Shown here: positions 5,483 through 26,830 of the stretch, one piece after another
How positions within the stretch are numbered: position 1 is the first letter of the stretch
How the letters are laid out: every line of letters begins with the position of its first letter
NCBI GenBank assembly: GCA_018466975.1
Contig: JAENRS010000022.1
Span: forward strand, 372,001-436,000
Direction: 5' to 3'
Origin: Sparassis latifolia
Lineage: Eukaryota; Basidiomycota; Agaricomycetes; Polyporales; Sparassidaceae
DNA length: 64,000 bases
Position numbers and translations under genes: made by a program
Notes under the pieces: generated by a model
What the model was told of the DNA's origin: nothing
Seen by the model: the letters and a program-made list of their open reading frames with translations, nothing else
Database searches by the model: none

Positions 5483-5602
5483 AGGATGAGGAAACTGGAA
5501 TGACTACCACGATGGCCTTCCTAGTTATCTTCCCAATCGTCCTCCACTGCACAACTCTCACTTTCCTTTGGATCATTCACCGAATCCTTATCAGACGACT
5601 CA

Positions 5603-5812: not shown

Positions 5813-5838
5813 AGGGAGGAGAAAACAATGTATCACCA

Positions 5839-6582
5839 ATGCCCACTTCTGCTATAGATGACCTTGTTCACAACATACTCGCTGAAGTCATTTCTACGAT
5901 TATGAGCACCCTCGCATCACCTACGCTTGTCAATGGAATACCATCCCGAACACAAACACCCTTCATCCACGCTTCATCGCCTTCACCTTCGATCGAACTC
6001 AGTCACGCATCGGACGAACAAGAATTTGCTACATGTCTGATCTCGGCCATCCGCACCCCCGTCGACTTCACAGATATTCTCGTCGCCCTACGAAATCGCC
6101 CGCAAGATCGACAAGTGGTGGTTTCTATGCAACGAGCATTAGAAATGGTCGAGTGGATGCAGACGGCCAGACAAGAGCTCATTGCAGCAGAGGAGAGGAT
6201 GAGTAGAGCCCGAACCAGAGTCAACCAAGTCTGGTCTCTGATGCGCAGTACAGTCAGTCGTACAGCACAGGAGATCTGGAGGGAGCATGGGGACAAAGAC
6301 ATCGGGCACATCCTCGGATACACCATTGATAGGAGACCCGCATCCACTCCTCGTTCATCACCAGAACCAATTCCTGTTCGACCTCACCCCCCTCGTTCAC
6401 ACGTGCCTACAGGTCACTCCCCATTATCGCAACCCTCCTTCTCACACGCATCGACTTCTTCGCGTCGCAGTCACCCCTATCGTGATGGATGTACACATGA
6501 ACAAGGACCACAAGCTGGCCAAAGGATGTGCTACAGATGTGGAGGTGATCATTATGTCCGGGACTGTCCCCAACGACGATGA
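5839..6582 (+). CDS. Extra ORF of the retrotransposon with C-terminal zinc knuckle
   Basis: An intact 247-codon frame starts at ATG 5839, downstream of pol and ahead of the 3' LTR. Residues about 95-140 are helical and charged, with coiled-coil character (QTARQELIAAEERMSRAR). A Pro/Ser/His-rich linker follows, and the C-terminus holds a zinc knuckle, CYRCGGDHYVRDC (C-x2-C-x3-H-x4-C), with all four ligands present. Zinc knuckles bind nucleic acid in Gag proteins, so this looks like a second Gag-like or accessory nucleic-acid-binding protein. Unlike gag and pol of the same copy it carries no premature stop. The precise role is unknown. Confidence 0.6.
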   Translation: MPTSAIDDLVHNILAEVISTIMSTLASPTLVNGIPSRTQTPFIHASSPSPSIELSHASDEQEFATCLISAIRTPVDFTDILVALRNRPQDRQVVVSMQRALEMVEWMQTARQELIAAEERMSRARTRVNQVWSLMRSTVSRTAQEIWREHGDKDIGHILGYTIDRRPASTPRSSPEPIPVRPHPPRSHVPTGHSPLSQPSFSHASTSSRRSHPYRDGCTHEQGPQAGQRMCYRCGGDHYVRDCPQRR

Positions 6583-6630
6583 AGACTACAAATATTTCTT
6601 GTGGGACAAGAAAAGTTAGACGGGAGCTGA

Positions 6631-7271
6631 TGTTACAATGCTCCTCAGTTATGGTGCGTCTTTTCTTTTTCCTTTCTTCGTCCCCTTTACTTTACCAGAC
6701 CACATGATCCAACACGTGACTCATCGGAGCGCAACCTCTGATTCTATACCCAGATGTCCAGAACCCCTAGTCTAGGGTTACACCAGATCCAACTCCGGAC
6801 CCTCTTCTTATCACACATGCAAGACGTGCATGTATGCCTCATCTTTACCTCGTTCTGATACACGACTCGTTATCCCCATTAGTACTGATTATCTCTCACG
6901 ATCTTACTCAGCTTTCTCATATATATTACTTCCTTGCTGTTACCTTGCCCAGACGTCGTCTCACCTTATCTAGCCAATGAACGATCCCGTATTACTGCAT
7001 AGTACTGCGGATACCTTTTGTATAAGTAGATGACCTTGTCGAGCTGGATCCCCATCTCGACCTGGTTACCATTAAACCAGTTTTTCACTTGCCTTTAACT
7101 GAGATCGACCGTCAGTAGCAGACAGCTACTACGAGTCATAAGAACGAACTCTGATCGACCTTCAGTGCGAGGACATCACCAGAAGTGTCACTTGAACGGA
7201 CTTGTGTCTTAGACTAAGACCTTGTCTCGTGACGACTCGACTAGATGCTCGTGTTTTGCTGCCGGGTAACA
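6631..7271 (+). repeat. 3' LTR of the gypsy element
   Basis: The segment begins TGTTAC and ends GTAACA, a perfect 6-bp terminal inverted repeat with the TG..CA ends of LTRs. A purine-rich tract (AAGAAAAG ... CGGGAG) lies just upstream, as expected for the plus-strand primer. The length is 641 bp. The second LTR is not in the window, so the boundaries could not be confirmed by comparison. Confidence 0.7.
6974..7027 (+). promoter_or_regulatory. Probable LTR core promoter
   Basis: A CCAAT box at 6974-6978 precedes a TATAAGTA box at 7021-7028, inside the LTR and about 245 bp before its end. This is the usual position of the U3 promoter. Activity is inferred from the motifs only. Confidence 0.4.
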
Positions 7272-7277
7272 CCATGT

Positions 7278-7285
7278 GACTTCTG
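7278..7285. repeat. Left target-site duplication of element A (GACTTCTG)
   Basis: The 8 bp immediately outside the left terminus of element A are identical to the 8 bp immediately outside its right terminus (26676-26683). Homology between the A and B left-type ends also stops at this base, which sets the boundary independently. Confidence 0.8.
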
Positions 7286-7375
7286 CACACCGTTCAGTCA
7301 TGTTACCTGAACTGAACTCCCATTTACCCTGACATTGTCATGAACTGGACAGCCAGCGGACGTCAGCCCATTGTC
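7286..7375 (+). repeat. Left terminal inverted repeat of element A (L-type end)
   Basis: The sequence matches the inverted complement of 37780-37865 (right end of element B) almost base for base. It also matches the inner part of the two R-type ends at 26590-26675 and 32206-32300. L-type ends carry a short ACCTGAACTGAACT stretch where R-type ends carry TTGTGAACTGGA. Confidence 0.85.
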
Positions 7376-8455
7376 ACCATGTTGACCTCTACCAGCAGTG
7401 GGCCCATATCTTTCATGTGTGGGATACTAGCAGTGGGCCCACCGCTAGTGTTCTTATCCCAGTGCTCGGCCCACTAGCAGGGCATATTACAGTGTTGTAA
7501 CTGTTAAGCAATGGGCCCACTGCCACAGGTCAGAGGGTGGGCCGATGCCAGAGCATGTTATTGCCATCGATGGGCCCACTGCCAAAGTATGATCAATGAG
7601 CAGTGGGCCCATCGCCACGAGTGTAAGATGACGGATGGGCCCACCACCAAAGGTCAGAGTGTTGGCCATGGCCAGAGCATGTTTGTCTGAGCAATCGGCC
7701 CACCGCCAGAGTATGATGAATGAGATGATGAATGGGCCCACCGCCAAAGGTCAGAGTGTTGGCCATGGCCAGAGCATGTTTGTCTGAGCAATTGGCCCAC
7801 TGCCAAAGTATGATGAATGAGCAGTGGGCCGATCACCCAGAGTGTAACCTGAAGGATGGGCCCACCGCCAAAGGTTAGAGGGTTGACGATTGCCAGAGCA
7901 TGTTATCGCCAGCAGTCGGCCCATCGCCAAAGCACCCTCAGTGAGGGCCTTACTGCAAGCACCCATGGGATAGGTCATCGCCAGGACATGTTTCCGCCAG
8001 CAATCGGCCCACCGCCAAAAGCCAGTGGGTTGGCCAACGCCAGAGCATGTTATCGCCAGCAATCGCCCACCGCCAAAGGCCAGTGGGTTGACGATCACCA
8101 GGATATGTCATCGCCACCAATGGACCCATTGTCACATACAGCCCTGCAGTTTCTGGGCGCATTGGTGGTGATGACGTGCTCTGGTGATCGCCAATCCTCT
8201 GACCTTTGCCGGTGGGCCCATCACTCACCAGCACTCATGGCGGAGGGCCAATTGGTGGCAAAAACACGGCTTGGCGATGGCCAACCCTCTGACCCTTGGC
8301 AGTGGGCCCTTTGCTGATGGAGCGATATTCCCATGCAGTGAAGCTTTCACTCAGGTCCTTTGGCAATGGGCCAATTGCTGGCAACAACATGCCTTGGTGA
8401 TGGCGAGCGCAGTCCGCCCATCTGAAGAGTACACTGGAGGAGTGATGGGCTTTAG
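7376..8455. repeat. L-type subterminal repeat array of element A
   Basis: Degenerate repeats of a unit containing GGGCCCACCGCCAAAGG and a GCCAGAGCATGTT block recur across the segment. The palindrome TGGGCCCA is the most constant core. The CG in ACCGCC alternates with TG and CA between copies. Open frames across this array are by-products of the repeat and not genes. The same array appears inverted at 36640-37780 in element B. Confidence 0.85.
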
Positions 8456-8557
8456 AGCTTAGTGATGCAGAAGTGAATGTATCCATTTTGTACTGGTATA
8501 CAAGCTGTTACATAGCGGTCATATATTGCTAACACCAGAACGCTCAAAGACACTAGT

Positions 8558-9956
8558 TCAGTTGCTGCGATACGCCTCGCCACGAATGTCCCTCAGAATG
8601 TACCCCATTTGGAACACGGTCGAGCTGGCATTGAGGTTCGCAACGTGCATATCCTCAGTGAGGTTGAGCTCATGCTGAAGACGTACAATGCACTCCCCCA
8701 ACATGGCACGACGACGACTAACCGCAAAGCTATCACCTTTGTCATCGTCCACTATGAATAAGGTCAACATCAGACTGAAGGTTGCCAGGGATGTACTCAC
8801 TGGAACTGTCTGCCTCTGCTGCGATCTGCGCAAACGATCTACCGAGGTGGGCCACTTGTGAGCCAGAAGCGGCATTCGTCTCTCCAGGGACTGCCATTGG
8901 CAGCAGCTGTGTGGTATCTGGGAATAAGCCTGGAACCTGTTCCCAATGGGTGGGATGATGGATCGGCAGCTCATCTGGAAGTGCTGCCAGACTTGGCATC
9001 CTGAAAGTAACAGTGACTGGCTCGATGCTGCCTTTCATATAGTGAATGACAGGTGCATCGTGGCGGAAATTGCTGTCATCGAAAGTGCGAGCTGGCGAGT
9101 GAGAGGGCGCCGATGGCAGAGGCGGTGGACTTAAAACATCGTCCAACAAAGGCCGCCTCTTTGGAGGTGAAGTGCTGGGACTATTTAGCCACCGGACCTG
9201 GCTACGCACAGGCGTCACGCCAGGGCTGTCTATCACCAGAGCTCGCCATCGTCCTGGCGTGGCGGGAGGACTATTGTCAAAGTCCAGCAGTTTCGGCACT
9301 GGTTCCGCGTCAAGTGTCTCATCCACCAGCATGCCCCTCGCCATCGGCGTACTTGCTTGACTATCGAAGTGGATGGATGTACGTGGCGTAGCGTCAAGGG
9401 GCTCAGCGATGAGCGATCATCGAGGGAGTTGGGAGGTGTCAGGAGTGCGAAAGTTGAAAGTGTGAGCTGGTGGAGGAAGGGGAGTAGCTTCCAACAGGGC
9501 GCATCAAGGGATTGGCGAGATGCCAGGAGTGTCGAAGTTGAACATTCCACCGGGCGCAGTGGGGGTGAAATCTGAGAGGAGTGCACGCCTATGGATTGGC
9601 GAACTGCCACAACTTTCATCCCAAGCTGGCGCCAGAGGGTCAGGAATAAGTGCACGACTTCCCTCCACAGGCGCCACAGATCCAGATGACGCCTGTACCT
9701 TTGGTGAGGTGTGGCGGTGAAGATGCTCATGTGGCGAGTTGGATGGCGCAAATGGAGCCGCCAGGGACGGGGTAGTGTGGCGGGGCGTGAGGGGTGTCTG
9801 AGAAGCAGAGTGGAGAGGCAAGGAGATCTGGGCAGATCCAGGAGAGTCAAGGAGATCCGAAATGAGTGGACGACGGGGCTCAGCGATACTATCCTCCTCA
9901 TCCGACTCGCCCATCGTAATGTCCAGCGTGTCAGGAGGTTCCGCATCACTGGCCAT
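8558..9956 (-). pseudogene. Cargo gene 1 of element A: Pro/Ser-rich protein of unknown function, broken
   Basis: The frame starts at ATG 9956 (MASDAEPPDTLDITMGESD) and encodes a Pro/Ser/Thr-rich, probably disordered protein. An intron with a GTGAGT donor near 8808 and a TTCATAG acceptor near 8757 joins it to a last exon ending at the TGA at 8558-8560; that exon contains AVSRRRAMLGECIVRLQHEL. In-frame TGA codons at 9504-9506 and 9417-9419 interrupt it, both consistent with CGA to TGA, and the same compositional style continues past them. I recognise no domain. The gene is transcribed away from cargo gene 2, with about 370 bp between their starts. Confidence 0.6.
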
Positions 9957-10325
9957 GGCAGGTAGATTGTGGTGAGCAGACAAGTCTTTGATCAGTCCTG
10001 GATCGCAGGAGATCAGTTGTAGAAAGGGGATTGATATGACATAGAAAGGTCAGATAACATCACAAAGGAGTCAGATTCCACAAGGAGAGCAATAGAACTT
10101 ACTGTTGGGAGCCATGAGAACTTGCGGCAGGTCACACTGACCTTGAGAGACTTGAGAAATCGCGCAAGTCCAGCGATCACGTGCAAAGCACGTGGTCGCG
10201 TGGCGTGTGAAGTTGAACTTGGTGCAGATCGCATCTGCCAGCTCATAGCGTCGTCTGCTCCGCCTCTGCTGTACTGCAACCTCTGCTTTTGAAACACCCT
10301 CACGCTTTCTTCTGCCAAGCTTGCC
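9957..10325. promoter_or_regulatory. Divergent promoter region with twin CACGTG boxes
   Basis: The region separates the starts of cargo genes 1 and 2. Two CACGTG E-boxes lie at 10178-10183 and 10189-10194, five bases apart. CACGTG is bound by bHLH factors such as Cbf1 in fungi; binding here is inference. Confidence 0.4.
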
Positions 10326-13300
10326 ATGACTCTGGATATCGACCCCAACTATGTTCTGCAGGCCGCGCGACTGATGGCCATTGTTGCAGTGGCGCCTCGC
10401 CAGGACGACCCTCGCTATTTGGACTGGGAGGCGAGGATTTACCTCGAAGTGGTAAGTCATTGGTCGCAGGTCTGGCATACCCTCACCGAATATGCCACAC
10501 AGAGTCAGCTTGAAAAGAGTTTCCCGCAGCCCTTGAAGTCGTTGAGGATGCCTGGCATCGTCATCAGTGCGTTGCTGGAATTCACCCAGGCGTACCAGCA
10601 GAAGGCCCTGGCGCAGCTGGACCACATATCGAATGACGACGAGAGGATATACAAGAGGTACCCTCTGGCTGTGCGCGAGTATGGGGAGTGTGAGGACCTG
10701 GGAAGGCAGTGGTGGACTGAAGGTGAGTCACAAGCGTTGTGAGGCGTCGAGCGACACACTGACTGCACCAGATCCATATTGCAAGCTGCCACCGGTGAAG
10801 AGTACGCCAGCGGAGGGCTGGGGCAATGTGCCATCCGATGATGACACCCAGGGACGTGGCGAGGAGGACCTGGCTACTGGGGACCTCGTCACCAAGGGGA
10901 AAGGCAAGGAGAGAGCTGACAATGACGTCGGGACAGGCATGGTGGGTGAGCGTATCATCCACGTGGAGGCGGGGGAGGACAAGGGAAAGGGCAAGAGCAA
11001 GGAGAAGGCGCAGGGGAAGGCGGCGCATGCGATGAGCGAGGAAGAGGATGGGGGAGAGGGAGAGGAAAGGGAGAGGAGCAGGAGGGCGAGGACGACGACG
11101 ATGCCGACAGTGACGAGGACGACGATGCCGACAAAGATGACGATGCCAACAAAGATGACGACGATGAGATGGCGGAAGACGTGCCGGGTGCAGGCCAGCC
11201 CGAATCCATCAAGGTCGATGCGGCGTCGCCCCCTCCGCCAACTGCCAGACCAATATCGATCTCGCCAGCTGCCCCATCACTCCGAAAGCACAAGGCGGTC
11301 ATCACAGAGTCGAGTGAGGAGAGTGAGAATGAGGAGGTGGCTCCGAAGGTGAAGCGGATGAAGCCGATCGAGGTCGCAAAGGAGAAAGGCGAGGCCCCGA
11401 CCACCTCTGGCTGAGCGCAGCGTGCGCAGAAGAGGATGGCGCAGACTGAGGTGGAGGGCTCGAAGGTGAGCACGAAGAAGAGCGAGAAGAGGAAGGCGAA
11501 GGAGTCAAGCGATGAAGAGGAAGTACCGACCGTCAAGCTGCCAAAGAAGAAGTGTGCGATGAAGGAATACAAGAGCAAGGAGTTCATCGAAAGCGAAGAC
11601 GAGACTCCGGCACTGCCTTCCAATCTACCTGCCAAGACCGCAGGGGACTCTAACGATGGTGTTGCGAAGACGAATGCCCCTGCCAAACCTGTCAAACAGA
11701 CAACGAGGATGACGGCGACGCCTCATGTCGCACTGAAGGCGACGGCAAAGGGGAAGGTGACGGTGAAGGCGAAGGTGAAGGTGATGGTGTCGCTGAAGGA
11801 CATGTGGAAAAAGACGTCCACCCGCGTGTCTGACTTCATGTGGGCACATGCAACAGATTTGGTGAGTAACGATCTTGTGAGACATTGACCTGTGCTAATG
11901 TTCCTGCAGCTTGTCCCTTGCATTGGCTGCCAGGAGAAAGAGTGGCCATGCAAGCTCAACACCGCCAACTTCGGTCGCTGCCTCGAATGTGCAGCACGAG
12001 GCGTCAGTTGCAGCATCGCGCTGAGGAACATGGATGGCGTGCCCCTGCAAGGAAACTCACACACCGCACAGCGTGAGTTCCAAGAGATGTGTGCAGCGCT
12101 GGTGGTAGAGGGCAAGCCACTGCCCACATCGCCACCTCCATACGACGTCAAGGTCGACTCTGATGAGCCCGACGGTGCAGAACCCATGGTCATGGGAGCG
12201 TCGAAGCGCAAGCCGCCGAAGAAGACCAAGATGCGCAATGCTGCAGCATCCAGCTCCATGGTCAAGGGTGGCGAGGAGGTTGAGGCGACAAAGCAGAAGG
12301 TGACCGTCATGCCCTATGAAGCCAACGCTGAAGGCGAGGCCTCGGTGGAGAAATCGTCGAAGTCCAAGCGCGCCACCAAGTCCACCACCGCCACTGGAGC
12401 TGTGGCTCTGTCCAACTCTGGCGAGGTCACCAACTCTGGCGAGGTCTCCAAGTCTGGCGCGCCTGCCAAGTCTGGTGCGGTCGCCAAACCTGGCGAAGGT
12501 AAGAAATCAGGACCCAAGGCAAAGCCGGTGAGGAGCCAAAACTCAGGTGCGCAAGATGGTGGCGAGGTCACCAGGACCTCAGTACGTGAGCTGGATGAGG
12601 TCCCGCCTGCCAAGTCTGTTGCGAAGGAGGGCGGGCAGATGACAAGGGTGGCGATGGGAGGTCGCTCGGGCCCAATGGTGCCCGTGATCACCAGGAAGGT
12701 GAAGGCGAGTGCTCCGAAGGCAGCAGCCAAGATGCCTCTGGCGGAAGGCGATGGCATGGAGGAAGCCGCCAGGCTGGCAATGGAGGCGGTGCGGGCTATG
12801 GCCTTCCAAACAGGGCCAGCTGCTCTGCCGCAAGCTAGCAGCAGCAAGCGCATGCTGACACCAGTCGCCGAAGAGTATCAGGCAGAGGTGGCAGAGGATG
12901 AGGTAAGCAGGACATCTTGTCACAGCTGGAGTCGATGTAACCATGAAACAGCGCGCATCCTTGGAGCGGCCACACGACGATCGGTGGCGTTCGCTGCTGA
13001 TGCCCCACGAGACGAGCGCAGGAGCTGCCGAGGTGGCACAGGAGGTGACGCCCTCCCTGGAGATATCCAAGGCGTCGAAGGGAGCGAAGTCCTCCACATT
13101 GGCAAAGGCAGGACATCTCGATGAAGGGCAAAGGCCAGCTAAGAGGGGTGCCCCACTGGACCGCAAGGCAGCGAAGAAGGAGGCGGAGGCGAAAAGGGAT
13201 GCGAAGGCGAACCGCCTCAGAGCAGTGCCTCTGACCAGCAAGGGTAAGTGCGCCCGCCACAGCTTCGAATCCATGCAGCACTGACCAGGATACAGCACCC

Positions 13301-14077
13301 CACTTGCGCGACATCCAGCGAGTGTCTACAGGAAGTCCCGCTCCAGTGAACGAAGGCAACACCCCCAGTGGCGAAGAAACCTCGCAGTCATCCAACGATG
13401 ACTGCGTGAATTGTGCCGAGTTGCGACAGGAGTTCCTGGCGCACAAGGACGGGATGGAAGTCCAATTCCAGGAGAGGATGGCGGACCTCAACACCGTCAA
13501 GGCAGAGATCACAGCGGCACTCCAGCGAATCAACCCGCCATCCGCATTTCAAGAAAATGCCCAGAGCATTTGCGAAGAGGTCAAGTTGGCCATGGAGGAG
13601 TTTCGCAGGCCGGTCGCCATCGAGCTTCAGGAGAGCATGAAGTTGGCGGTGGCGGACCTCATCGCCAAGCGACATTGCCTGCCAGAGCTCAAGGAGAAGG
13701 TCAACAGGTTGGAGCAAGGTGCGAACCAGACGGTGAGCCAAGCGGACGTCGACAAGCTGCAGGGTGAATTGGCCGACCTCCGTCATTCGATGGAGCTCCA
13801 GGCAGCGCAGTCAGACAGCATGGAGAAGGAGCTCAGGTCTTCAGCGGCAGAGGCGATCGCTCAAGCGAGCAAGCTGGAGATGGAATTGGTGCTCACCAAA
13901 GAGGATTCGATGGCGGTGGTGATGTCCGCTTTGGATGAAGCGAAGAAGGTGGGGAAGGAGGTGGCGATGGCGAGAGAGGAAACCTCGCTGGTGGCGAAGT
14001 CTCTGGACGCATTCCGAGAGAAGGTCGACTCCGCCATGGTCTTCATCGCCTTTCGCCCAGATAGCCACAATGTGTAG
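10326..14077 (+). pseudogene. Cargo gene 2 of element A: lysine-rich protein with Cys cluster and C-terminal coiled coil, broken
   Basis: Five exons can be joined in phase: 10326-10722, 10772-11861, 11910-12902, 12952-13243 and 13296-14077. The N-terminal 130 residues are helical and start MTLDIDPNYVLQAARLMAIV. A long acidic/basic low-complexity region follows. At the start of exon 3 is a cysteine cluster, CIGCQEKEWPC ... GRCLECAARGVSC, that looks metal-binding. The last exon (about 260 residues) has strong coiled-coil character (ELADLRHSMELQ, MEKELRSSAAEAIAQASKLE). A TGA at 11412-11414 (CGA expected) and a one-base frameshift in the G/A-rich tract near 11060 break the frame. The combination suggests a chromatin- or DNA-associated protein, but I know no function for it. 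Confidence 0.7.
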
Positions 14078-14443
14078 TCATTAGAGTATTGATATACATG
14101 CTTTTTAACCTAGCATGGAATCTCCATGCACTCAATTCGCCACTGCCACTCCAAGTCAACTGAATGCCTGCTGAAGTTCTCGCCAACTCCCCTCGCCATT
14201 GCCACCATCTCCATGGCTTTACCTATGTAGATCTATGGGTCACATTAAACAATGTGGAAGCCTACGAGTCTACTTTGAACTGGAGTTATATTGTCAAGGT
14301 CTGGTGCCACCACTGCGGGTCTTGCGACCTGCGCCAACTTGGCCACTCTCTTTCACTTTGGCAGCTGCTTTCCCCAGATGGACCGGCTTCAGCTTGGTTT
14401 CTCCCTTGTCCTTGACCTCTGGGGTCTGAGGCAGAGCTCGTCT
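14078..14443. other. Convergent intergenic gap between cargo genes 2 and 3
   Basis: The 366 bp between two convergent gene ends show no coding frame, repeat or structured motif that I can support. The region probably holds both 3' untranslated regions. Confidence 0.4.
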
Positions 14444-17400
14444 TCACTTTGCAGGAGGCTTGTCACCATCATCCGAGTCCTCGGCCCTCGCATTCTTCTT
14501 CCTCGGTGAGGCCACTACCAACTCATCCCGAGTACCACGTCCACGCTTCCGAGGTGGCGGATTGTCTTCGCCAGAGCTGTCTTCGCCATCGGGCTCGGGA
14601 CGTGCTGGTTGACGTTTCCGCTTTGGATCAGGAAGCTTCTTCAAATCTTTCACAGCTCCTAGTGGATGCTGACTGTGGGTATTCTTGGCGGGCGACTCAT
14701 CCATCGCTTGATGCTGACTGCGAGTGATCCTGCCGGGGATATTACTCTGAAGGGCATCAGTGATCGACCTTCCCTGGAGCGCTTTGGCTTGACCTGACAG
14801 ATGGTCTTCCGTGGCTGCGGCCTTCCTCATCTTAGGTATAAACGGAGGCGGTGGCGGTCATTCAGCACCACTGCTAGGTACGGACAAGTGTGCATCGTTC
14901 TCTTCGCCATCGTCAGAGGCCCCACCACTGGTCTCCTGGCTCAGCCCTTTGTCTCCTCCACTTGGAATGATTGGTTTGTCAGCCATGGGGGCAGGCTGGT
15001 GAGCCTTGTGAACTTTGGCAGCAGTAACAGCGCCATCGTGAGTTCTTGCAGAGGCATCACCTTCCTGCTCCTCCTGGCCGCCAAGGCCATCGCCACCTTG
15101 TGGGGCACCGCGTATGGCAGGCTTGCTCACTGGCTTCACCATGGCATGGGTGACATTCCCTTCCATCATGTCCAAGGTAATGATCTTGCAACAGCGAAGC
15201 AGCTGCTCTACTGCATCAAATGAGATCGCTGAGTTCACCACATAGTCGGGAAGGTTGGTCAGTTCGCCCTCCTCAATGAACTGAGATCGTGTGAGGTCCC
15301 TCAGCACCATACCAATCACGAGTGCAGATTGTTGTATGCCCTGTGGATGTAAGAACTGATATTTTGTCAGCCATGATTTGTCGCCCAACCAGTTCTCGAC
15401 GATGTCAAAGTTGTCCACCGCATGAAATGACGGCGGGAGGTAGCGCTGGCCATACGACCATTCGCTCCAGGGAATCGGATCATACCTGGCGAAATGATAC
15501 ACCTGGGGCTATATGACGGATGATCAATAGTGGCTATGAATCCCCACGAAAGGAGCTCACCACAGTCGCAATCTTGACTTCCTTCAGCATATCCTGGTAT
15601 CGCGGTTCGATGGAAAGGGTGGCGAGAAACACGTCTCTCCTTTTCACGAGGTGGGGCACAGTACTCCCCACAGTACTCCCACCAGTGAGACGCGGGGCTC
15701 GGCCTTGAAGCTCAAGCCTGAGCTCCTTTGTACTGGGCTCCAGTTCACTCCATGCTTCATCGGTCTCCTCTGTGTCAAATCTGTGCAGTTCGCCCAGAGG
15801 AAGGTCTTGGAGACCTCGCTTTGCCTTCGTCTTGGCACCGCCGCTACCACTCGCTTGAGGTGCACCGCCATTGTTAGCCTTACGTCCATTGGTGGTGGCG
15901 ACTGCCTTGCCCTTCGCTTTATTCGCAATCACGCTCTCGCCATCCCCTGAATCTTCATCGCTGGCCGTATCTTCTTCGGAAGCCATGCTGGGTATATCTG
16001 GCGAACTCCGATCAGAGTCTTGGCTGCTTCTGGCATCGTCTTCCGAGTCGTATGCATCTTTCATCTTGCGTTTACACCCACCGCCTTTGGCTCCGCCAGG
16101 GGCCGCTTTGCCCTTTGTCGCCTTCGATGTCGCCTTTCCTATGACCTTGCACACAGGTTTACCCTTCTTCTTCGCCTTCCCCGCCTTCTTGGGTGTGAGT
16201 GCTTCTTGGACCTCATGTTCAGATCCTTCTTCTAATGCCTGTGCTGATCCGTCAAGTGGTGGAAGAGGATCATACTTGGCGGGAGCAGCTTCACCATCCT
16301 TGTCGAAGTACTGAGTGAATCGCATGGTCTGCTCAGGTCCATGTTCCTCTTGGCATGCCTGCTAGTGGTCGAGGAGGGCATGAACGGGAACACTTGTCAT
16401 CTTTGAGGGATCGATCCACTGGAAGTTCTCAGGTAGCCTCTCCGCTGGAATAACCTCATTGATGTCGTCTATGCTGTTCAGCTTCGTCCATGGTGACTTG
16501 CAGTTCCGAACACCCTTCGCCAATGCTGTAAACTGGTCAGCATCTCTCAACACCGAGTGGGAGTGCATACCGTAGTGATGATTCATGAAGTCTCGAACTT
16601 GTACCTTCATCACCTTGAGAGCCGCTTCCGCCGTACCTTTGGGCACTGACGGGAGCAGAGGAAAACCGTTGGCTGTCAACCGAATCTTGTCCATGGCCCG
16701 CATGCAATTGGCAGGTGTCTTCTTCACCGTCACCATAGTCTCAGTCACACCTAAGGAATCAGGTCAGTGTGCCAGCGACAATACAACTGAGGTCTTCTTA
16801 CCGTATTCGCCTTTGGCCCACTCAGAGAACACCTTTGCTAGAGGCTGGTAAGCACGCAGCCACCCAGGATAGGCCCCGAATGGAGTTCCATTGGTGATGG
16901 CGTGGTTGACCTCCACCCTTCACTCGGGGGTTAGCAGATGGCGACAGTCGGACGGTCTACGCTCACATCTCTACCTTCAGACTCCCCGCTTCCTTCGGAT
17001 ATGCTAGCATGAATGCCATGCGAATGCCCATGGTGTCCCACATAGTCTTGGCAAACTTCTTCAGATATTGCATCATTTGCTGCTCCCTCAGCCCGTCTTA
17101 GGTCAGGATTTGCCTTATGCTACGTGACAGGAGGTACGCACTTCATTTTCATCTTATCATCCAGAGTGCCATTGCGCCAACTTTCCGCCTTTTCCTCATA
17201 CACCTTCTGCTCCTCCTCGGACAGTTTTGCCCATTCGGCACTCCGTGCGACTCTCCACACCTTGGAGACATTGCAACCCTTTTCTGCCACGAGTGCTGGT
17301 GCGGCCTCAGTCACCTTGTCCCTCTCCAGCGCATCCCACACCTTAAAGGCATTGGGCTTGCCAGAAACATGCATACACTTTTTCGTCGCTTTCTCCTGCA

Positions 17401-17788
17401 CATGGCGGGCGTGGTTATTGAGCCACTCTCGAATTTTCTGCGGTGAGAGTTAGTGGGGACCTCACAGACATGAAACACTGCTCACAGTTTCCACAATGAT
17501 GTCATCATAATTTGACACGTCGACAAACTGTGTCTTCAGCTTCTGGCACAAGCTCTGAACCAGAGTCTTGCGACCCTTGGCATCTGCCGTGTCATAAGAC
17601 CGCAGCTTCTCAGAGAGTATGGGCTGATGCTCCATCAAAATTACAAATCTCGCCGGCATGCTTTCTCGATGTCGAGGATGAGATTTTTGTGTTGGGGCAG
17701 TGAAGGGGGTCGATAGTTCAACGGGCAGCACTTTGTCCATTTCCTCATCGGCCGCCCACAACTCAACATGCACGTGCTGATGGCCCAT
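14444..17788 (-). pseudogene. Cargo gene 3 of element A: HMG-like motif plus low-complexity basic regions, broken
   Basis: The gene starts at ATG 17788 (MGHQHVHVELWAADEEMDK) and runs left through at least six exons. Clear introns lie near 17440-17488, 17100-17132, 16925-16965 and 15509-15560. An early exon has WAKLSEEEQKVYEEKAESW (about 17190), which resembles the last helix of an HMG box. Other parts have conserved-looking segments (FQWIDPSKMTSVPVHALLDH; YHFARYDPIPWSEWSYGQRY) and long Lys/Ser/Asp tracts ending in PRKKNAR-type basic runs. A TAG at 16362-16364 and a TGA at 14858-14860 (CGA expected) break the frame. It converges on cargo gene 2 and diverges from the TET/JBP gene. A DNA-binding role is inference from the HMG resemblance. 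Confidence 0.62.
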
Positions 17789-18336
17789 TTGGGCTTACAC
17801 CAATTACCCTCCTCGCCATGGTGTGTGGTGACTGCTGAAGCATTGTATGTGTATTTTTCGCAGTGGCGGAAGGTGGTAGTAGGTATGCACTAGCATTCAT
17901 GCCTGGTGAAAGGCAATGTTGAATGCCACTTCTATGGCAGAGCACACCACGCCAACTTCATCTCGCGAATGCTGGGCGGAGGCAATCTGGCGATCATCTG
18001 CATGCCAATCTGTGGGATAAAGGGCTTCCTCAGAGTTAGGCTCGGCCAATTAGATGGCGGTGACAAAGGGCCCAGACATGGCGGACCACCCGGCCCATGA
18101 TCCGGCATGGCGGCATCAAGTCCGGCTCGGCGGCATGATGAACATGTGAGATGTGCAAGGGACGTGCTTGCAAGCAATATGCAGGCAGATGAATGCATAC
18201 TATTCTTTGCCATTCTGGCCCCTCCTACATTCTCCCCTGCATCTGCAAGCCAACCGCCTGAGCCCACCATACACCTGTGCGTTCCTTCAACCGATGCATG
18301 CTGTAATCATCCCATTGATTGGCAGATAGTATCAAG
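17789..18336. promoter_or_regulatory. Divergent upstream region of cargo gene 3 and TET/JBP
   Basis: About 550 bp lie between the two starts. The region is GC-rich and contains repeated GGCATGGCGG-type runs near 18080-18140. No defined TATA box or operator could be assigned. Confidence 0.3.
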
Positions 18337-19774
18337 ATGAGCAATCTGTCACCCATGCCACTGACCGATCAGATAGCAGGAGTCTTGAAGCTCATGTTCC
18401 GCCGAAAGCTCCATCTGGCCACTCATGCAGCCCATTCTGCGCCATCTATAGAAGTGCCTCCGTCCATGCCATCTGCCCTCCTATTGGAGTGCAATGGCAT
18501 TGCAGATGCTCTTGTGAAGGTCATCCGTAATCCTGGTAGTCATTAGTCTTGCCGCAGGTCTGATCACACTGATCACGCCATTGTAATAGTAAGGCTGCAG
18601 TGGGACATTGATAGATATTGCGACAGCCTTTCGATTCAGCCCACGGGGCAGAATAAAGTCCTTGAGGCAGAACTGGAACGGAAGTGGCCTCCTCCATTTG
18701 GTGAGAGCGAAATACACATAGACCAGCCCGCCACCCTCGTGGACATGTACGGACGCATCTTGGCTTGGATACTTCCAAGAGTGTTGATACCAGACCGCCA
18801 GGTGAGTGGCTTGCCCAGCCTTGCGCTGTGATCTGACAAATTTGTCAGACGAAGATGCTCCAAGTGACCAAGGCCCTACACCCAGCAATAGCAGCCAGTA
18901 AGCCTTCCAGCACCACCGCCAGTTGGCGACACAACCCGTTGTACTTCTTGCCTCCTGAGGAGTGTGCCCAATTCCCAGCGGGCTCCTTGTGTCTCTCGCC
19001 AGGTTGGTTCCAACAAGTAAGAGAGGTGGGTCTCCTCACCACACCATTTGCCTTGCGTCTGGACAGCCTTTGCAGCATATGGAGTCTGGGAGGCTGGAGA
19101 CCTCCGCCAGCCTGAAGCTTGAGGGCGGAAGAAGTTGGCTGCGTGATATTCATGACTCCTCCGCATTGCTGGGCGCCATCCTGGCCGTCGTTCACCCAAC
19201 ACTATATGCTGCAGGACGCCAGTGCTTAGGTTTGATCCAGCAAGACCCAGAATTGCGAGAGATGACGCTGAACTGGTCGTCGCCATTCAATGCGCTCCAG
19301 GTGATTGCCAACTGGGAAACTCCTTTCCACTGAGATAGCAAGACAAGATACACCTTCTACGACCTGTTGGCGACGTTGGGCAACTACACTTGCGCGTGGT
19401 TGAAGTTCCCCGCCATGCGTGTCGCCATCGATTATAGTCCTGGAACTGTCATAGCCTTCTGTGGAAAGGCGATTCATCATGGCATCACTCGAGCAGATGA
19501 CGAAAGGCTCGTCTATGCATACTTCATGCGAGAGGGTGTCCAGAACAGGCTAGGCATTCCGGCGCCCCACTGGATGCAAGCTTCATATTACGCCTCACAC
19601 ATTGGCATGTGCACAGTTCATCACCGAGTCTGCATTCCTAACTCAGAACAGGTCCTAACTGGCTCACTTATTAGAGGGACATCATGCCAAAGACTGATGG
19701 AGATGAGAACACTATGCAGAGGATGGAGACTGTCGATGGCAGCTTCATTGGCGAGACAAAGTTGGCAGAGGTGA
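18337..19774 (+). pseudogene. TET/JBP-family 2-oxoglutarate/Fe(II) dioxygenase, broken in the metal site
   Basis: TET/JBP enzymes oxidise 5-methylcytosine or thymine in DNA with Fe(II) and 2-oxoglutarate. The visible family marks are an upstream block (KWPPPFGESEIHIDQPATLVDM, then GRILAWILPRVLIPDRQ) ending at an intron near 18803-18849, a NPLYFLPPEE ... CLSPGWFQQ block, and the double-stranded beta-helix. The first metal motif HxD lies at 19328-19336, but its middle codon is TGA (19331-19333; CGA expected), so translation stops between the two iron ligands. Downstream the fold continues intact: DYSPGTVIAFCGKAIHHG with the distal His near 19478, then ERLVYAYFMRE with the Arg expected to hold 2-oxoglutarate. 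The exon 1 to 2 junction near 18513-18557 is uncertain. Fungal TET/JBP genes are known to travel with KDZ transposons, and here the transposase starts 530 bp downstream on the same strand. Confidence 0.85.
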
Positions 19775-20303
19775 TGGCGAAATGTATGGAGTCACGAATT
19801 ACCGAATCCTAGCTGAAGGTTGGCGAGTGCGCGGTATGAGTGCGCATTTCACATCTCGACAGTGTTCAGCTCAAGGTGTAGTTATCACTGATGGCAGCAT
19901 ATGGTTGGCGGACCTCGAAGTTGGCGGAGATGGTGGCGAAATGTATTCGGTCGAGAAGTTGTGAGTGCTAGTGGGGCAGATGGCGGCAGTGTTGGCGAGC
20001 GCGCGGTGCAAGTGCACGTGTCCCTTTTGAACATTATGCTACTCCGAGTCAAGGCAAAGTTAGCACTGAGGGCGACATACGATTGGCGGACCTCTCACCA
20101 ACATGGCATCCTTATCTGCATAACGCTGATATGGTGCCTAAAGAGACCACGAGGTGATAAGGCCCAGGCATTGCAGCCATTCTTAACCACCTTGATGAGT
20201 AGTCTGATGGGCAGCAAGGCTGTGTGTGATTTGCACGTGTTGTGCGATAGGGACACAATGCTCATTGATTGGCTTGGAATACGACTCCCCACTGACCTGA
20301 ACC
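19775..20303. other. Spacer between TET/JBP and transposase, rich in TTGGCGAG motifs
   Basis: The spacer contains partial direct repeats of GTTGGCG(A/G) followed by GATGGCGAAATGTAT (near 19770 and 19930) and the string GAGTGCGCGGTATGAGTGCGC. No gene is supported. It probably holds the 3' untranslated region of one gene and the promoter of the next. Confidence 0.4.
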
Positions 20304-23300
20304 ATGAGCAGACGCAACAAAAGCAGGCTCGTTGTAGACCTGGATGACGAGGTTGAGTTTGTGACCAAGGTAGCTAAGCAGACCACTAGGGGAGTACGCT
20401 ATGTGGACGTACCTTTGCCCATGCCCACGGGTTCAAACGTGCCATCACCTTCCAAAAGTCCATTGAAGGCTCCAGCTTCAGGCTCCTTATTTAACTTGGA
20501 TGATGGCGACGTCCTGGGCAACATAGGTGTGCCGATTCAGCTGGATCTGGCGGCTCGGAAGACAAAGGTGGGCACTCCGCCATGACCATCTGACGGTCTG
20601 ACCATGCGTGATAGACCCAGAATGACTTCATGAGGGACTGGATACCCCACCGTGATGACTATCTTCATGCCATTGTCGAGATGGAAGCCCCGCCTGAGCC
20701 CAGAAACTGTGCAGAATGCAAGGTTGGTGAGGGACGGTGGCGATGCCTGGACTGTATGGGCAGACTGCTCACCTGTACCGACTGCTGTCGTAATGGCCAT
20801 CAGCGTGCTCCTTTCCATCGGATAGAGCATTGGCAGGGTCAGTATTTTGAGCCGGCATCACTGTATCGGGTTGGCATCTGCATCCATTTGGGGCATGGTG
20901 GAGATCCCTGCCCTCTGGGCGCCTTCACAGCACATAACAACTCTGCGCCGGTGGTGGCCCCGGGGTCCGATTTCTGGAATGCCTCCAATGAAGACCTAAA
21001 TGCACATGATGGCGAGGTCTCAGATGATGGTGAGGTCCCATTCAACTTTGCACCTCTGGCAGGCACCCTTGACGGTGAAGCAAGGCAAACCGACGATGCT
21101 CCCGATCCCACTTGGGAGGAAGATGTGCCACCGGTGCTCTCCCGGCCACCTCGCTGTGACAGTTACGGGAATCGGATCATAGTCATTGTCGACATCTCTG
21201 GCGTTCACCATATCGGCATTGACTGGTGCCAGTGTGAGATGGCAGTGGAGCATGACATGCAGCTTCTTCAAATGGGACTTTACCCTGGTACCGTCAAGGA
21301 TCCCCATACCGCCTTCACATTCGCCGTCCTCGACGATTTCCTTCTGGAGAACAAAGAGTGCAAGACGGCGGCATTGAACTACTACAGCAAGCTCAAACGG
21401 GTCACGAGCAATGCCTTCCCTGGCACCGTTCCCGTAAGTGTTCACATGCATTCCCATGGCCCAACCGTTCATGCCAGTTCCTCGCCAGGACCGTTATCGT
21501 GAGCTGATGCAGGTGTCCCGCCAATGGCGCCAACTCAAATATCGCAAGTGGCACGGCTTCTCACACGATGCCCTCCGTCCTGTGGAGAAGGGTGGCCTCG
21601 CCATCTTTTGTCCCGCCTGTCCCCAGCCTGGGCTCAACCTGCCTTTCGATTGGCAAGCGGATCCAGTGCAGTGGAAGTTCAAACACGGCTTTGCCATGGA
21701 TGGCAATTTCAGTGCAGAGCACATGAAGATGAAGCACCCCGAGGAGGACGTCGCCCTCAGTGATGGCCAGGCATTCATGGTCGGCCAAGAGGATTACAAG
21801 GCTCATCTGGCGGTGGCCATGGAGTCCCATCAGGTGCGTGTCTGGCTGCACGTTCTTCTTCCGCCCTTGACTCCTAAGCCCACCAGCGCTCCACTTGTCA
21901 TGAGCACCGCACTGTCAATCAGGCCAATGTGGATCGCGCCAACCTCGACGCCACAGGAATCGGGGCCACTGCTTGCGCCAGACATGGTTTCTTCGTCCCT
22001 CATACTGTCGTCGATTTCCAGAAGGGAGAAAGGTTCGCATATGTCTCTTGTCATGATTCATTCTCACCGACACACCCTCTGCAGACAAATGAATATGGAT
22101 TACTCTCTCAGCAATGCGCTCCTGACCCTCACTGGTATCACCCTCGTCCTCGTCATGTACGACATCATGTGCCAGTATGGCGTCCATGTCCGCAAATGTT
22201 TCCGCCACAGCGCCTATCTGAGGATGCCCTTCGAGCTCAAGATAGACCAAGGCATCAGCTTGTTTCATGTGCACGGACACCAAGATTGCTGCTTCCAACG
22301 GTTCTCGCCCAACTTTATAGTTGGCGCTGGTATGGTCGATGGCGAGGTCATCGAGACCCTGTGGGCACCCACAAATGAGGTCTCAGGCAGTACCAGGGGC
22401 ATGACCCGAGCTCACCACCAAGAAGTCCTTGACGATCACATGAATGACTCCAACTGGAAGAAGACGACTCGCATGGGTGAGCCTGGTTCCTCCTTCCCTA
22501 TTTGCCACCTGCCTTATGCTGCCTACAGTGCCAACCTTGATGACAAAGTGGAAACACATGCTCCTGGGCTTCCCAAGAAGCAAGGAGTCCTTTGAAGCTT
22601 TATCTGCATCCACAGATGAGGAGGTCCTTGAGACATGGCAGAAGGAGTACGACGACGCTATGGAGGCTCGCCAAAATGATCCGAAGATTATGGACACCTT
22701 CGATGTCCAGCTCAGGAAGGGTGAGTATCCTTCCATCGTCGTGTGGCATGTAGTTGACGTGAATGCAAGCCCCGGGTAAAGACCTCACCCAACTCAGACT
22801 GGCGGGCGAGGAGTCCGCCAAGGGCTTGGAGAAGGGCACCGCCGGATGGTTGTCGACTGGCCTCAAAATTCAAGAAGCACAGTGAGTTTGCCTTGTCTTT
22901 ACAAAAATACAGCTCTGACGGCCTTCAGGCTTAAGCTTGCGAATGATATCCGCAAGGCGAGTCAAAATCCGAGCATGGCGGAGGACCTCAAGACTCTCGA
23001 GCGCCGTCAGCGCCTCGAAGTCAGCATTCTCATATTCCAACGTCACTCTGAGAAGTTCATGGGAAGGTTGGAGGATGTTCCCGCCATGGAAGATCGTGAC
23101 GATGGTGCGCTCTGGGATTCCTTGGATGAGAATCCTTTTCAAATACACCTGGAGGATGCTGAGTATGGCGAGGATGCGATTCCACCGAGCAAGCTTCCTT
23201 GAATTTACCTTCGCAGATCGGATTCGTGGCTGCCGTCGCCAATGGGCTCCAGACCCTGGTGGCCCAAGAGTTGGAGTTGCGCAAAGGCCTGATGAATGAC

Positions 23301-23993
23301 ATCCTCCACGAGCTTCGCATGGTGCTTGGACTGAAGTCTTACCTCTACCGCAAGAGGGTTCATCCCGCCAACAGCATCGGAACCATGACCCGTGCACAGG
23401 CGGAGGTTCATGCTGCCGATCAGACCGTCTTGGCCTGCGCCAGGCTCTATTCCGCCAACTGACGCGCCATTATGCGCTTGGGCGCCACCGATGAAGACTT
23501 GGCCCTCTATCGCCCTTTGGATAAGAAGGACCTGCACGTGAAGACTGCTGTCATCGAGGCTAGCACCTCCGGGCTCAGGAACATCAACCTGGCTTGGTTC
23601 TGGACTATGGATGTCGCTGGAGATCGAGGTTCATCAGAATGGATGGACGAGTGTTCGTAATTGTCCGATCGATCTCTAGGCCTCCTGCTAATTTACCCTC
23701 CAGTCTATAGAGTGAATTAGCTGCGTGCCAGAGCTCGATATGAGAGATGGAGGGAGGAGCGTGTCTTGGTCCACTCGGAAATGGCCTGGACCATAGCCAC
23801 CTTCAAGCGGAATGCGGAACGATGGGCTCACTGGCTCGAGATGACAGATCCTTCCTGGCGGGGTCATGTTTGCTATGCTGCCAGGCAAGTGAGTATGTGG
23901 TGGACCTTCGCCAGCCACGCCACTGACGCCTTCAGCCACATCCTCGCCCTGGACATTGAGGACAAAAGGGCAGGCGATGAAAATGTGCTTTGA
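20304..23993 (+). pseudogene. KDZ transposase of element A (CxC cysteine cluster plus DDE-type core), broken
   Basis: In-phase exons are 20304-20567, 20621-21433, 21489-21833, 21887-22032 and 22085-22476, followed by further exons to 23993. Exon 2 carries the CxC cluster typical of KDZ transposases (CAECKVGEGRWRCLDC, then LLTCTDCCRNGH). The core follows the family order: FPGTVP, DRYRELMQV, CPACPQPGLNLP, STCHEHRTVNQAN, GATACARHGFFVP, VVDFQKGER, QMNMDYSL, then YDIMCQY, HVHGHQDCCFQRF and GMVDGEVIETLW, which supply the likely catalytic Asp and Glu. The C-terminal helical part has LKTAVIEASTSGLRNINLAWFW-like family sequence. Stops at 23460-23462 (TGA) and 23718-23720 (TAG, Trp expected) break it. 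Length and order match complete family members, so it was an active transposase that decayed. Confidence 0.93.
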
Positions 23994-24206
23994 GTCAGGG
24001 TTCACTGGGGTGTACGCATATTCATGTTTGCTATATCGATGTAGTGATCGTCATGTATGTAATTCCTACTCACCAATATCACATTTGGCGAAGTGACCTC
24101 CATCCTCGCCTGAGGGCTTCATCTCGGCATGTGCTCTCCAATCGCATGACATCAGACATCAGATAAGGTCGATCAGATATCAACCTCGGCTCATCCACTC
24201 ACCGTC

Positions 24207-24927
24207 ATGTCTGCCCAGTCTTCAACATCAGATGCACGCCCCTGCCTGTTCTCCAGAGGGAGGTTGCAGTTGGAAGTCTACACTTGGAGGATCCAAGAAG
24301 CTGTTCTGGCACTGGAGCCTGACCCAGATCACTTCACCAAGGTCCGTTGGGAGGAAGGCTTGCGCCGGGAGATGGTACGCCTTTCTTGCTGATATCGCCT
24401 GACCCTGCTGAGTCCTGTGCAGTTCGCCGTCAGGGGTATCTGTGGCGACCTCGCGTTGGCGGGTCATGCTGACCATATTGACCATGGCGGAGTTATCGCC
24501 AGTGTCCTCACCGTCTGCACTTTCAATCGCGAAGTTCTGCGCCCCATCAGCATTGACGTCAAGGCGATTCCATGCCCCACCACCCTCGTTCCTCGTCCTA
24601 AGAACCTACTCGAGGATTCACCCGACTACTGGTGGAAATGGGATCGTCAGGTTGGGCCGGCGGGGAGCCCTATGGAGGCCTGGTGGTACAAACTTGGTGA
24701 TCCCTGGGTGAGTGGTACGTTCCAGCACCTTACAGTCTTGCTGAACCTCGAGAACGTAGGAGAAGGTGTACACCGTCTCTGAGTCTACACTGGTGCAGCT
24801 TGAACAGCTGCATGTTCGCGTCGCGAACCTCACTAGTTGGTTGCACGAGAGGACAGATCAGAACCTGGATGTGGTGCTGGAAGAGCTGCAGGAGGCGACG
24901 CGGCAGCTGCGTGAGTTAGGAATATAA
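24207..24927 (+). CDS. Intact three-exon small protein of element A, unknown function
   Basis: Exons 24207-24374, 24423-24707 and 24760-24927 all join in phase 0 with GT..AG introns of 48 and 52 nt and give an uninterrupted 206-residue protein. It begins MSAQSSTSDARPCLFSRGRL, has a Trp-rich middle (DYWWKWDRQVG, MEAWWYKLGDPW) and ends in a leucine-rich helix likely to form a coiled coil (LVQLEQLHVRVANLTSWLHE). I do not recognise a family. It is the only cargo gene of element A without a stop or frameshift, and it lies just downstream of the transposase on the same strand. Either it is under selection or it is too small to have been hit. Confidence 0.7.
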
Positions 24928-25035
24928 TCGCCCAATGCCAGGCGTCCGTTCGTGCTGTAGTGTGTCGAATATAAGGTTGTCATGTCTTTGTACCTGGGCA
25001 ATGTACCTGGTGTGGTAAGGCGAAACATAGTAGCC

Positions 25036-25363
25036 ACATACTCTCCTCAGGAGGGCACATCCCCAATGGTATCTGATGCATGGCTCGAAAGCCAATGCCA
25101 CATGGGAGAGTTTGGCGAAGTCATTCTGGACTGCATGTTCAGATGGCGAGTGATATCCACCACAGTTCGCCAACCCTACTCACGGTGGAAAGGACCGCCA
25201 TTCGTCTCCACATACTCTACCCAGAAGGGCACATCCCAAATTGTATCTGATGCATGTCTCGAGATGCCGATGCCAATTGGGAGAGTTTGGCGAAGTCATT
25301 CTGAACTCCATGTTCAGATGGCGAAGGATATTCACCACAGTTCGCCAACCCTTCCCACAGTGG
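25036..25363. repeat. Two-copy direct repeat of about 153 bp
   Basis: 25036-25188 and 25210-25363 share most bases, including the blocks GAGAGTTTGGCGAAGTCATT and CACCACAGTTCGCCAACCC. The copies are separated by about 21 bp. No coding frame is supported. It lies between the last cargo gene and the right subterminal array. Confidence 0.75.
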
Positions 25364-25580
25364 GAGAGAGTGTGATACTGCAAGAAGAGCTGATAGTGAG
25401 CTAACCAGAATTGGAGGGAATGATCGGTGGATTACGTGGAAATTATTGGCCGGTGGTAGCTTCATCATTGCCCTGTTAGGCGGTGGATCAATCACTGAAA
25501 AATATGCCCATGGTGGTTGACTGATTGCTGAGAACTACACCTATGGCGGTGGGCCGATAGGTCTGAGCAAGAGGTGCCGC

Positions 25581-25919
25581 ATGAGCAATGACTCGGCGTC
25601 GGAGCCCCCTTCTTCTGTGGTGTCCTTCGGCTCGTACACTGATTTGCACATGTCCGCATCCTCGTCTACTTCGTGCTCTTCGGTTGACTTCGGGTACAAT
25701 CCGTTCACTTCGTATGGTCTACTTCTTGGCTCGGGCAACCAGGTGTGGCATCCGCCCATGCTTCCCCCTGACCAATCTCCACGTTTCATACATCCGCCCA
25801 TGCTTCCCCCTGACCAATCTCCATGTTTCATACATCCACCTATGCTACTCCCTGATGAATCATCCGGTATGTTCCTTCACCCACCCATGCTTCACCAAGA
25901 TGACACGGACACGATATGA
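25581..25919 (+). CDS. Possible short ORF with four HPPML repeats
   Basis: A 112-codon frame starts at ATG 25581. Its second half is a tandem repeat of a 14-residue unit HPPMLPPDQSPRFI, encoded by 42-bp direct repeats at about 25747-25890. The first half is Ser-rich. It lies inside the right subterminal repeat zone, so it may be a minisatellite that happens to be open. Confidence 0.3.
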   Translation: MSNDSASEPPSSVVSFGSYTDLHMSASSSTSCSSVDFGYNPFTSYGLLLGSGNQVWHPPMLPPDQSPRFIHPPMLPPDQSPCFIHPPMLLPDESSGMFLHPPMLHQDDTDTI

Positions 25920-25989
25920 GCCCAGTTGACAACCTAGGGCAAGGCAAATAACTCAGCTATGCCCGGGCTAGTCAGATATTTCAGGCGAC

Positions 25990-26575
25990 CCATGCTTATG
26001 GGCTCAGAAATATACCTATGGCGGTGGGCCGATGGCTGTATAATAGCCCCGTGGTGGTGGGCCGATCGCTCAGAACACTACCTATGGAGGTCGGCCCATC
26101 GCTCAGAACCCTACCTATGAGGTTGTGCCGATGGCTGTATAATAGCACCGCAGCGGTGGGCTGATCGCTCAGAAATATACCTATGGCGGTGGGCCGATCA
26201 CTCAGAACACTACCTATGGTGGTCGGCCCATCACTCAGAACACTACCTATGGCGGTGGGCCGATCGCTCAGAACACTACCTATGGCGGTGGGCCAATGGC
26301 TGTATAATAGCCCTAGTGGCGGTGGGCTGATCGCTCAGAACACTACCTATGGCGGTGGGCCGATGGCTGTATAATAGCCTCGTGGCAGTGGGCCGATCGC
26401 TCAAAAATACACCTATGGTGGTGGGCCCATCGCTCAGAACTATCACCACGGCGGTGGGCCCATGCCTGTATAATAGTTGCATCATGGTGGTGGGCCGATC
26501 GCTCAGAAATACTCCTATGGCGGTGGGCCCATCGCTCCAGCATTCCCTTCATCGCCATGAGCCGATCGCTGACAG
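25990..26575. repeat. R-type subterminal repeat array of element A
   Basis: Units of about 32-33 bp, TATGGCGGTGGGCCGATCGC followed by TCAGAACACTACC, recur with a second type that replaces the tail by TGGCTGTATAATAGC. A few scattered copies lie further left, at about 25500-25560. The array is distinct in sequence from the L-type array but shares the GGTGGGCC core. It matches, inverted, 32300-32570 in element B. Confidence 0.85.
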
Positions 26576-26589
26576 CTCCTTACACAGAC

Positions 26590-26675
26590 TGATGGGCCGA
26601 CGTCCACTGGCTGTCCAGTTCATGACAATGTCAGGGTAAATGGGAGTCCAGTTCACAAACATGACTGAATGGGCT
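26590..26675 (-). repeat. Right terminal inverted repeat of element A (R-type end)
   Basis: Read on the minus strand it starts AGCCCATTCAGTCATG and matches the start of element B at 32206, and after the first 25 bases also the left end of element A. Confidence 0.85.
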
Positions 26676-26830
26676 GACTTCTGATCATGTTAGAAATACA
26701 CGACAGGACTTCTTAACATGTTAGAAACTCATGACAGGACTTCTGATCAAGTTAGAAACTCACGACGAGACCTTTGAATATGTTGAAAGCTTACGATGGG
26801 ACTTCTGATCATGTTGAAAATTTACAACAT
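26676..26830. repeat. 31-bp tandem repeat next to element A; first 8 bp are the right target duplication
   Basis: Five diverged copies of a 31-bp unit starting GACTTCTGATCATGTTAGAA follow the right end of element A. The first 8 bp (26676-26683) duplicate 7278-7285. The array therefore belongs to the target DNA into which element A inserted. Confidence 0.75.

Follow-up and report, generated by a model that had tools for sequence, protein, structure and literature searches.

The window, by which we mean the whole 64,000-nucleotide stretch of DNA that was analysed (C14:372001-436000 in a Sparassis latifolia genome of 41.4 Mb and 22 contigs), contains a complete KDZ-type DNA transposon, and this transposon carries a broken gene for a TET/JBP dioxygenase. 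The features are listed below with positions counted from the first letter of the window.

7279..7285, no strand: target-site duplication ACTTCTG, left copy, 7 of 7 bases equal to the right copy
7286..26676, plus strand: KDZ (Kyakuja-like) DNA transposon, complete, 19,391 bp, delimited by its recurrence in the genome, the breaks in its flanks and its CA..TG ends
7290..7371, plus strand: left arm of an imperfect inverted repeat of about 82 bp, starting 4 bp inside the element end
17120..17449, minus strand: weak HMG-box-like frame, below the Pfam cut-off
18337..19812, plus strand: TET/JBP dioxygenase gene, broken, AG-type (Pfam Tet_JBP, CcTet alignment, splice model, S. crispa homologue P0001)
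18337-18526 (uncertain), 18590-18801, 18849-19016, 19067-19627 and 19675-19812, plus strand: exons of the TET/JBP gene
19313..19315, plus strand: second CpG lesion, TGG (Trp) at the Arg codon CGG of NR.TP.HRD
19328..19336, plus strand: iron motif HxD, reading His-TGA-Asp (CAC 19328-19330, TGA 19331-19333, GAT 19334-19336)
19331..19333, plus strand: premature TGA, where 29 of 33 copies have CGA
19478..19480, plus strand: codon of the distal iron-ligand His, intact, from the CcTet alignment
19505..19507, plus strand: Arg of the (G/D)ER motif (here DER), probable 2-oxoglutarate Arg, intact, from the CcTet alignment, role inferred
20301..22779, plus strand: KDZ transposase region, limits approximate (Pfam PF18803, CxC2, E 2.6e-27; PF18758, KDZ, E 2.8e-33)
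26592..26672, minus strand: right arm of the inverted repeat
26677..26683, no strand: target-site duplication ACTTCTG, right copy, 7 of 7 bases equal to the left copy

The limits of the element follow from its siblings. Positions 9000-18400 are repeated almost in full at 12 additional genomic places (17 of 47 candidates scored), and the part from 19800 to about 26676 is found again, complete or incomplete, at many places (20 of 143 candidates scored). All 12 left ends, the window copy included, start with CACACC and their flanks diverge outward of it, while the right ends of 12 sibling copies terminate in GGCTG or AGCTG, so that CA..TG termini are found on the window copy and the sibling ends. 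Among six sibling end pairs, the two 7-bp sequences agree in three and differ in the other three. The CxC2 and KDZ domains both lie within 20615-22595, and the element that surrounds the gene bears out the earlier proposal, made from the sequence alone, that the TET/JBP gene is carried by a KDZ element. Because inverted repeats are present, the element is filed as KDZ, Kyakuja-like, a placement made by domains and termini. Positions 1-7271, to its left, belong to an LTR retroelement, a separate repeat in which reverse transcriptase and integrase are encoded.

Several further observations concern the element and its relatives. Minisatellite-like arrays of GGGCCCACCGCC-type units lie at both of its ends (7500-8450 and 25980-26560); the two arrays are apparently inverted relative to each other and vary among copies. 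Long frames on both strands of 8742-17794 fill much of the 19-kb element, and none of those tested scored over a Pfam cut-off, the weak HMG box being the only signal below it; they are possible further cargo genes. A relic of the left end of the element, 74-82% similar, is found on the minus strand at 36789-37866 of the window (C14:408789-409866). On another contig, the left flank of L062 (C10:538596) and the right flank of L083 (C10:495520), in opposite orientation, have the 7-bp GATGGCA in common, and the flanks of L063 and L083 do not match; the L062 and L083 elements seem to have had their ends swapped by inversion or mis-assembly.

The TET/JBP gene had been read as 18337 to 19774. By comparison with the homologous protein P0001 of S. 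crispa, it continues through a last exon to the TAG at 19810-19812; its first exon, opened by the ATG at 18337, lacks homology support and has an ambiguous splice site. The identity of the gene held up well. Pfam Tet_JBP, with a curated cut-off of 34.9 bits, scores below this threshold upstream of the stop (residues 63-124 of 18959-19333, 24.7 bits, E 1.6e-05) and downstream of it (residues 9-65 of 19334-19774, 29.3 bits, E 6e-07), and reaches 68.4 bits, above the cut-off, when the match runs across the stop. The downstream piece alone matches CcTet with E 4e-10, and the open frame of a sibling copy aligns with CcTet residues 251-408 (PDB 7vpn, E 7e-26; 8jkk, E 1.2e-25). The top-ranking protein relative comes from Sparassis crispa, with 81% identity over 88% of the query.

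The alignment also settles where the iron site lies. NRETPFHRD of the open sibling frame falls on NRATPIHRD of CcTet, HRD upon HRD, and NR.TP.HRD stands at this position in all nine homologues inspected, out of 15 found in public data. The HxD motif is thus located at the stop itself, as the reading His-stop-Asp had assumed, and not elsewhere. The iron ligands HxD...H and the 2-oxoglutarate Arg are complete in the open sibling frame; in the window copy the HxD is broken, and the distal His and the probable 2-oxoglutarate Arg are present as previously stated. The Arg codon at 19475, just before the distal His, now encodes His. The family resembles CcTet of Coprinopsis cinerea (PDB 7vpn, 8jkk) in its HRD motif, its distal His and its equivalent of Asp337, which is conserved; CcTet is active, whereas the window copy would terminate after the first iron ligand.

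In the sibling frame alignment, Thr takes the place of CcTet Gly331 in this family, and to judge from this residue the 6mA activity of the Thr-bearing enzymes may differ. Across the genome, 27 of 32 over-cut-off Tet_JBP matches run through the matched region without a stop. PF20515 gave no match in the genome and none in any control genome either, and is therefore uninformative. A second, diverged TET family is represented by L059 (C8:2238746-2242090), which keeps HRD and has a TGA a few residues after it, at a position with Arg in most relatives.

The codon of the stop was compared among 33 copies that cover it, the window copy included, a number that is a lower bound for the family since 3 of 36 DNA matches fall short of the codon and are uncounted. 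Twenty-nine copies read CGA, two read TGA (the window copy and L028), one reads CAA (L025), which is the same CpG hit on the opposite strand, and one has a one-base deletion (L021). With CGA in 29 of the 32 other copies, the derivation of the TGA from CGA, first put forward without any sibling, is well founded. The Arg codon at 19313 has been hit in the same manner: 24 of 33 copies retain CGG, six have TGG (the window copy and L028 among them), one has CAG and two have a one-base deletion.

The changes of the window copy are of a uniform type. Compared with the majority of the 33 copies over 18337-19774, its 25 substitutions consist entirely of C>T and G>A changes, with 15 at 148 CpG positions, 10 at 642 other C/G positions and none at 648 A/T positions. 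Seven of the 10 non-CpG changes are seen in other copies too, more than the average non-CpG rate would lead one to expect; they may stem in part from exchange among the gene copies or from other hot contexts. The sole change of another type in the gene, a T>A at 19801, falls in the last codons past 19774. Over 4.5 kb, the window copy has 52 CpG GC>AT changes, 19 other GC>AT, 3 AT>GC and 5 transversions (CpG versus other C/G, odds ratio 11.8, P 2e-22). The family follows the same pattern: 25 copies (30 less L022, L024, L026, L028 and L029) together show 900 CpG and 312 other GC>AT changes, 243 AT>GC and 182 transversions over 4.5 kb, with CpG transitions 11 times commoner than those at other C/G, on both strands. 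Among the premature stops in register in 32 copies (33 less L050), all 19 are due to GC>AT changes and 12 are CGA>TGA at the 8 CGA codons (odds ratio 8.0, P 1.6e-5, with copies taken as independent, and some of the 19 may be inherited and not separate hits).

We consider it highly probable, from this spectrum, that the window copy is a TET-bearing KDZ copy decayed by methyl-CpG deamination, the change of the HRD codon from CGA to TGA being part of that decay. The transposon has at least 33 copies, and on its own branch the window copy has gained changes that are mostly C>T and G>A and concentrated at CpG, one of which turned the CGA of the HRD motif into TGA. The copy was presumably silenced, its CpGs methylated by host enzymes of DNMT1 or DNMT5 type; spontaneous deamination of 5-methylcytosine would then have produced the changes, and the TET gene would have drifted without selection.

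Candidate enzymes for such methylation are present in the genome, where PF00145 has five matches at four loci. A fragment on C11 matches chain 7r76 (molecule name Rad8) with E 1.6e-74, a chain that we take to be DNMT5. A fragment on C4 is DNMT1-like (E 4e-10), one on C5 is DNMT2-like (E 1.6e-19), and one on C7 has the PF00145 match only. In the accessible text of a review, DNMT1-RFD and DNMT5 are given as the core methyltransferase pair in Basidiomycota. The loss of a methylated C, proposed as the cause in the sequence-only reading, is supported by a methyl-CpG-type spectrum and by DNMT5-like and DNMT1-like fragments. In 2-kb steps, CpG o/e ranges from 0.15 to 0.85 over 1-54 kb and from 1.00 to 1.15 at 54-64 kb, a contrast that would fit methylation confined to repeats, although it is not assignable to repeat versus gene, since four frames tested in 54-64 kb gave no Pfam match. 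The interval 34001-36000, with CpG o/e 0.15 and GC 0.36, is far below the remaining window.

An active, RIP-like premeiotic hypermutation aimed at CpG in repeats, by which the load would have been made in a burst, is the most serious alternative, and we regard it as unlikely. The purely GC>AT changes of the window copy in 18337-19774 would suit it, and CpG hypermutation has been reported in the agaricomycetes T. matsutake (PMC6980582) and R. solani AG8 (PMC4014442), as far as the available parts of these papers go. However, the load is graded over the 25 copies, and the CpG count per copy is correlated with that of other GC>AT changes (rho 0.86), weakly with that of transversions (rho 0.42) and not with that of AT>GC (rho 0.18, P 0.40). 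The context is against it as well. The transition rate per CpG cell in the 25 copies is 10.6% for ACG, 7.7% for GCG, 7.0% for CCG and 4.0% for TCG, so that TCG is the context least hit, whereas the mutation reported for Pucciniomycotina is TCG-biased. The other C contexts stand at 0.1-1.1% and A/T at 0.5% over the same 4.5 kb. RIP of the Neurospora type was considered and set aside: it prefers CpA, and here C>T in CpA contexts amounts to 0.5-1.1% versus 4.0-10.6% at CpG.

A gene for an enzyme acting on methylcytosine could conceivably have shielded its own CpGs. The fraction of CpG cells changed is 6.3% in the TET gene (240/3841), 6.8% downstream (328/4796) and 8.4% upstream (332/3963), which is a slight deficit at most, and selection on coding sites could produce such a deficit; protection of the gene's own CpGs was accordingly rejected. 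It is improbable, in our estimate, that the TET cargo gives the element no lasting shield and that the cytosines oxidised by the enzyme may themselves raise the C>T load, the element thereby helping to erode its own catalytic codons. The data suggest that any protection of the element by TET enzymes would be limited to the time when a copy is young and expressed.

Sequencing or assembly error, in which the TGA or the entire CpG excess would be a base-calling artefact at methylated sites, is very improbable. The quality of the assembly lends it something: several copies are rich in one-base deletions, of which 96 of 216 lie in runs of three or more versus 12.5% of bases, and repeat polishing looks imperfect. 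In the window copy, however, a single such deletion occurs over 4.5 kb, and the CpG changes are sparse and differ from copy to copy. The copies concerned (L011-L014, L018, L021 and L023 among others) have 14-26 one-base deletions each per 4.5 kb, often in short runs, and these are likely to be unpolished long-read errors. Because they look like sequencing errors, pseudogene counts based on frameshifts are unsafe in this assembly. In the exon model, 3 of 33 copies (L009, L019 and L026) are without stops and frameshifts, a count that is unreliable as many deletions are error-like; L019, with its frame intact, has 21 missense changes.

It is less probable still that the stop was inherited, from a dead master copy moved by trans-complementation, or received from L028 by gene conversion. 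L028 shares the TGA at 19331 and the TGG at 19313, but it is not the sister of the window copy in either tree, L015, L005, L014 and L019 in between read CGA (the supports being weak), and the T of the window copy at 19306 is missing from L028. The tree of 30 copies is poorly resolved; in it, the window copy (L001) stands at the end of a long private branch, which measures 0.019 when all sites are used and 0.006 when CpG sites are left out, and the neighbour of the window copy is L015, with supports of 0.85 and 0.57. Since L015 reads CGA, an origin of the stop on this private branch is most likely. Independent hits in L028 and the window copy are the simpler reading of their common TGA, compared with a short-tract exchange between both.

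The stop is not a singular lesion, for the same gene has 15 missense changes, including R>W in NR.TP.HRD. Its 23 coding changes, 15 nonsynonymous, 7 synonymous and 1 stop, compare with 14.1, 7.8 and 1.1 under a neutral, CpG-aware model, in which the probability of at least one stop is 0.69. The HxD codon is one of 8 CGA codons, so that landing in the iron motif is about a 1 in 8 event, and another of them, the CGA at 19529 (Arg of YFMR), has become TGA in 4 of 32 copies. The iron-site stop is an expected draw under neutral CpG-aware decay and is not special. The earlier view that the enzyme was inactivated by the very mutation that methylcytosine causes stands in so far as the spectrum fits; its claim that the TGA did the killing goes further than the data, as the TGA is not orderable before the 15 missense changes. 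Several hits would have disabled the gene, of which the TGA is one and may not have been the earliest: the order of losses cannot be told because the Arg of NR.TP.HRD is lost in the window copy too. The irony of a methylcytosine enzyme lost to methylcytosine decay is genuine but to be expected, and it applies to the whole family. Readthrough or recoding of the TGA, leaving the enzyme alive, is scarcely credible, for although the frame past it stays open to the family stop codon, R>W has hit the conserved Arg that precedes the motif, further missense changes are present and the N:S pattern is neutral.

When 28 copies are pooled (33 less L050, L057, L026, L028 and L029), the N/S ratio is 1.39 versus a neutral 1.80 (P 0.003) and there are 13 stops versus 23 (P 0.015), inherited changes being treated as independent in both comparisons; the signal of past selection on the TET family is weak.

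Much of the setting has been described before. TET-bearing Kyakuja transposons with AG-type TET have been published for Agaricomycetes (Kojima 2025, PMC12730594), which agrees with the premise that the link between fungal TET/JBP genes and KDZ elements is established. According to the accessible portions of that paper, their hosts include Polyporales, and the window element resembles them in its KDZ transposase, 7-bp duplication, CA..TG ends and HxD-type TET. It differs in its near-terminal 82-bp inverted repeats, whereas the Laccaria Kyakuja families (two of L. bicolor) are without TIRs; in its family's Thr at the Gly331 position, where the Kyakuja TETs have Gly or Ser; and in its TET copy being broken. 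The same portions cite Chavez et al. for 46 TET genes in C. cinerea, 32 of them likely active, a likeness in that part of the copies is catalytically dead, and they name no cause for that loss of activity. C>T mutation at CpG in agaricomycete repeats is likewise on record for T. matsutake (PMC6980582) and R. solani AG8 (PMC4014442), and in the available text of the latter TGA is the main nonsense product of CpG-biased mutation. Unlike in those reports, as far as their available text goes, the CpG decay is followed here in a TET-bearing element, by comparison of its sibling copies, down to a catalytic codon. A literature search outside subscription journals brought up no account of CpG lesions in the iron site of a TET enzyme.

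TET-bearing Kyakuja, dead TET copies (implied for C. cinerea) and CpG-biased mutation in agaricomycete repeats are thus already published, on the evidence of the accessible parts of these sources. To these the present analysis adds the codon-level history, the near-equal CpG decay of the TET gene and its flanks, the inverted repeats, and a family that numbers at least 33 copies. With so many copies, the decay of a transposon-borne demethylase becomes traceable codon by codon.
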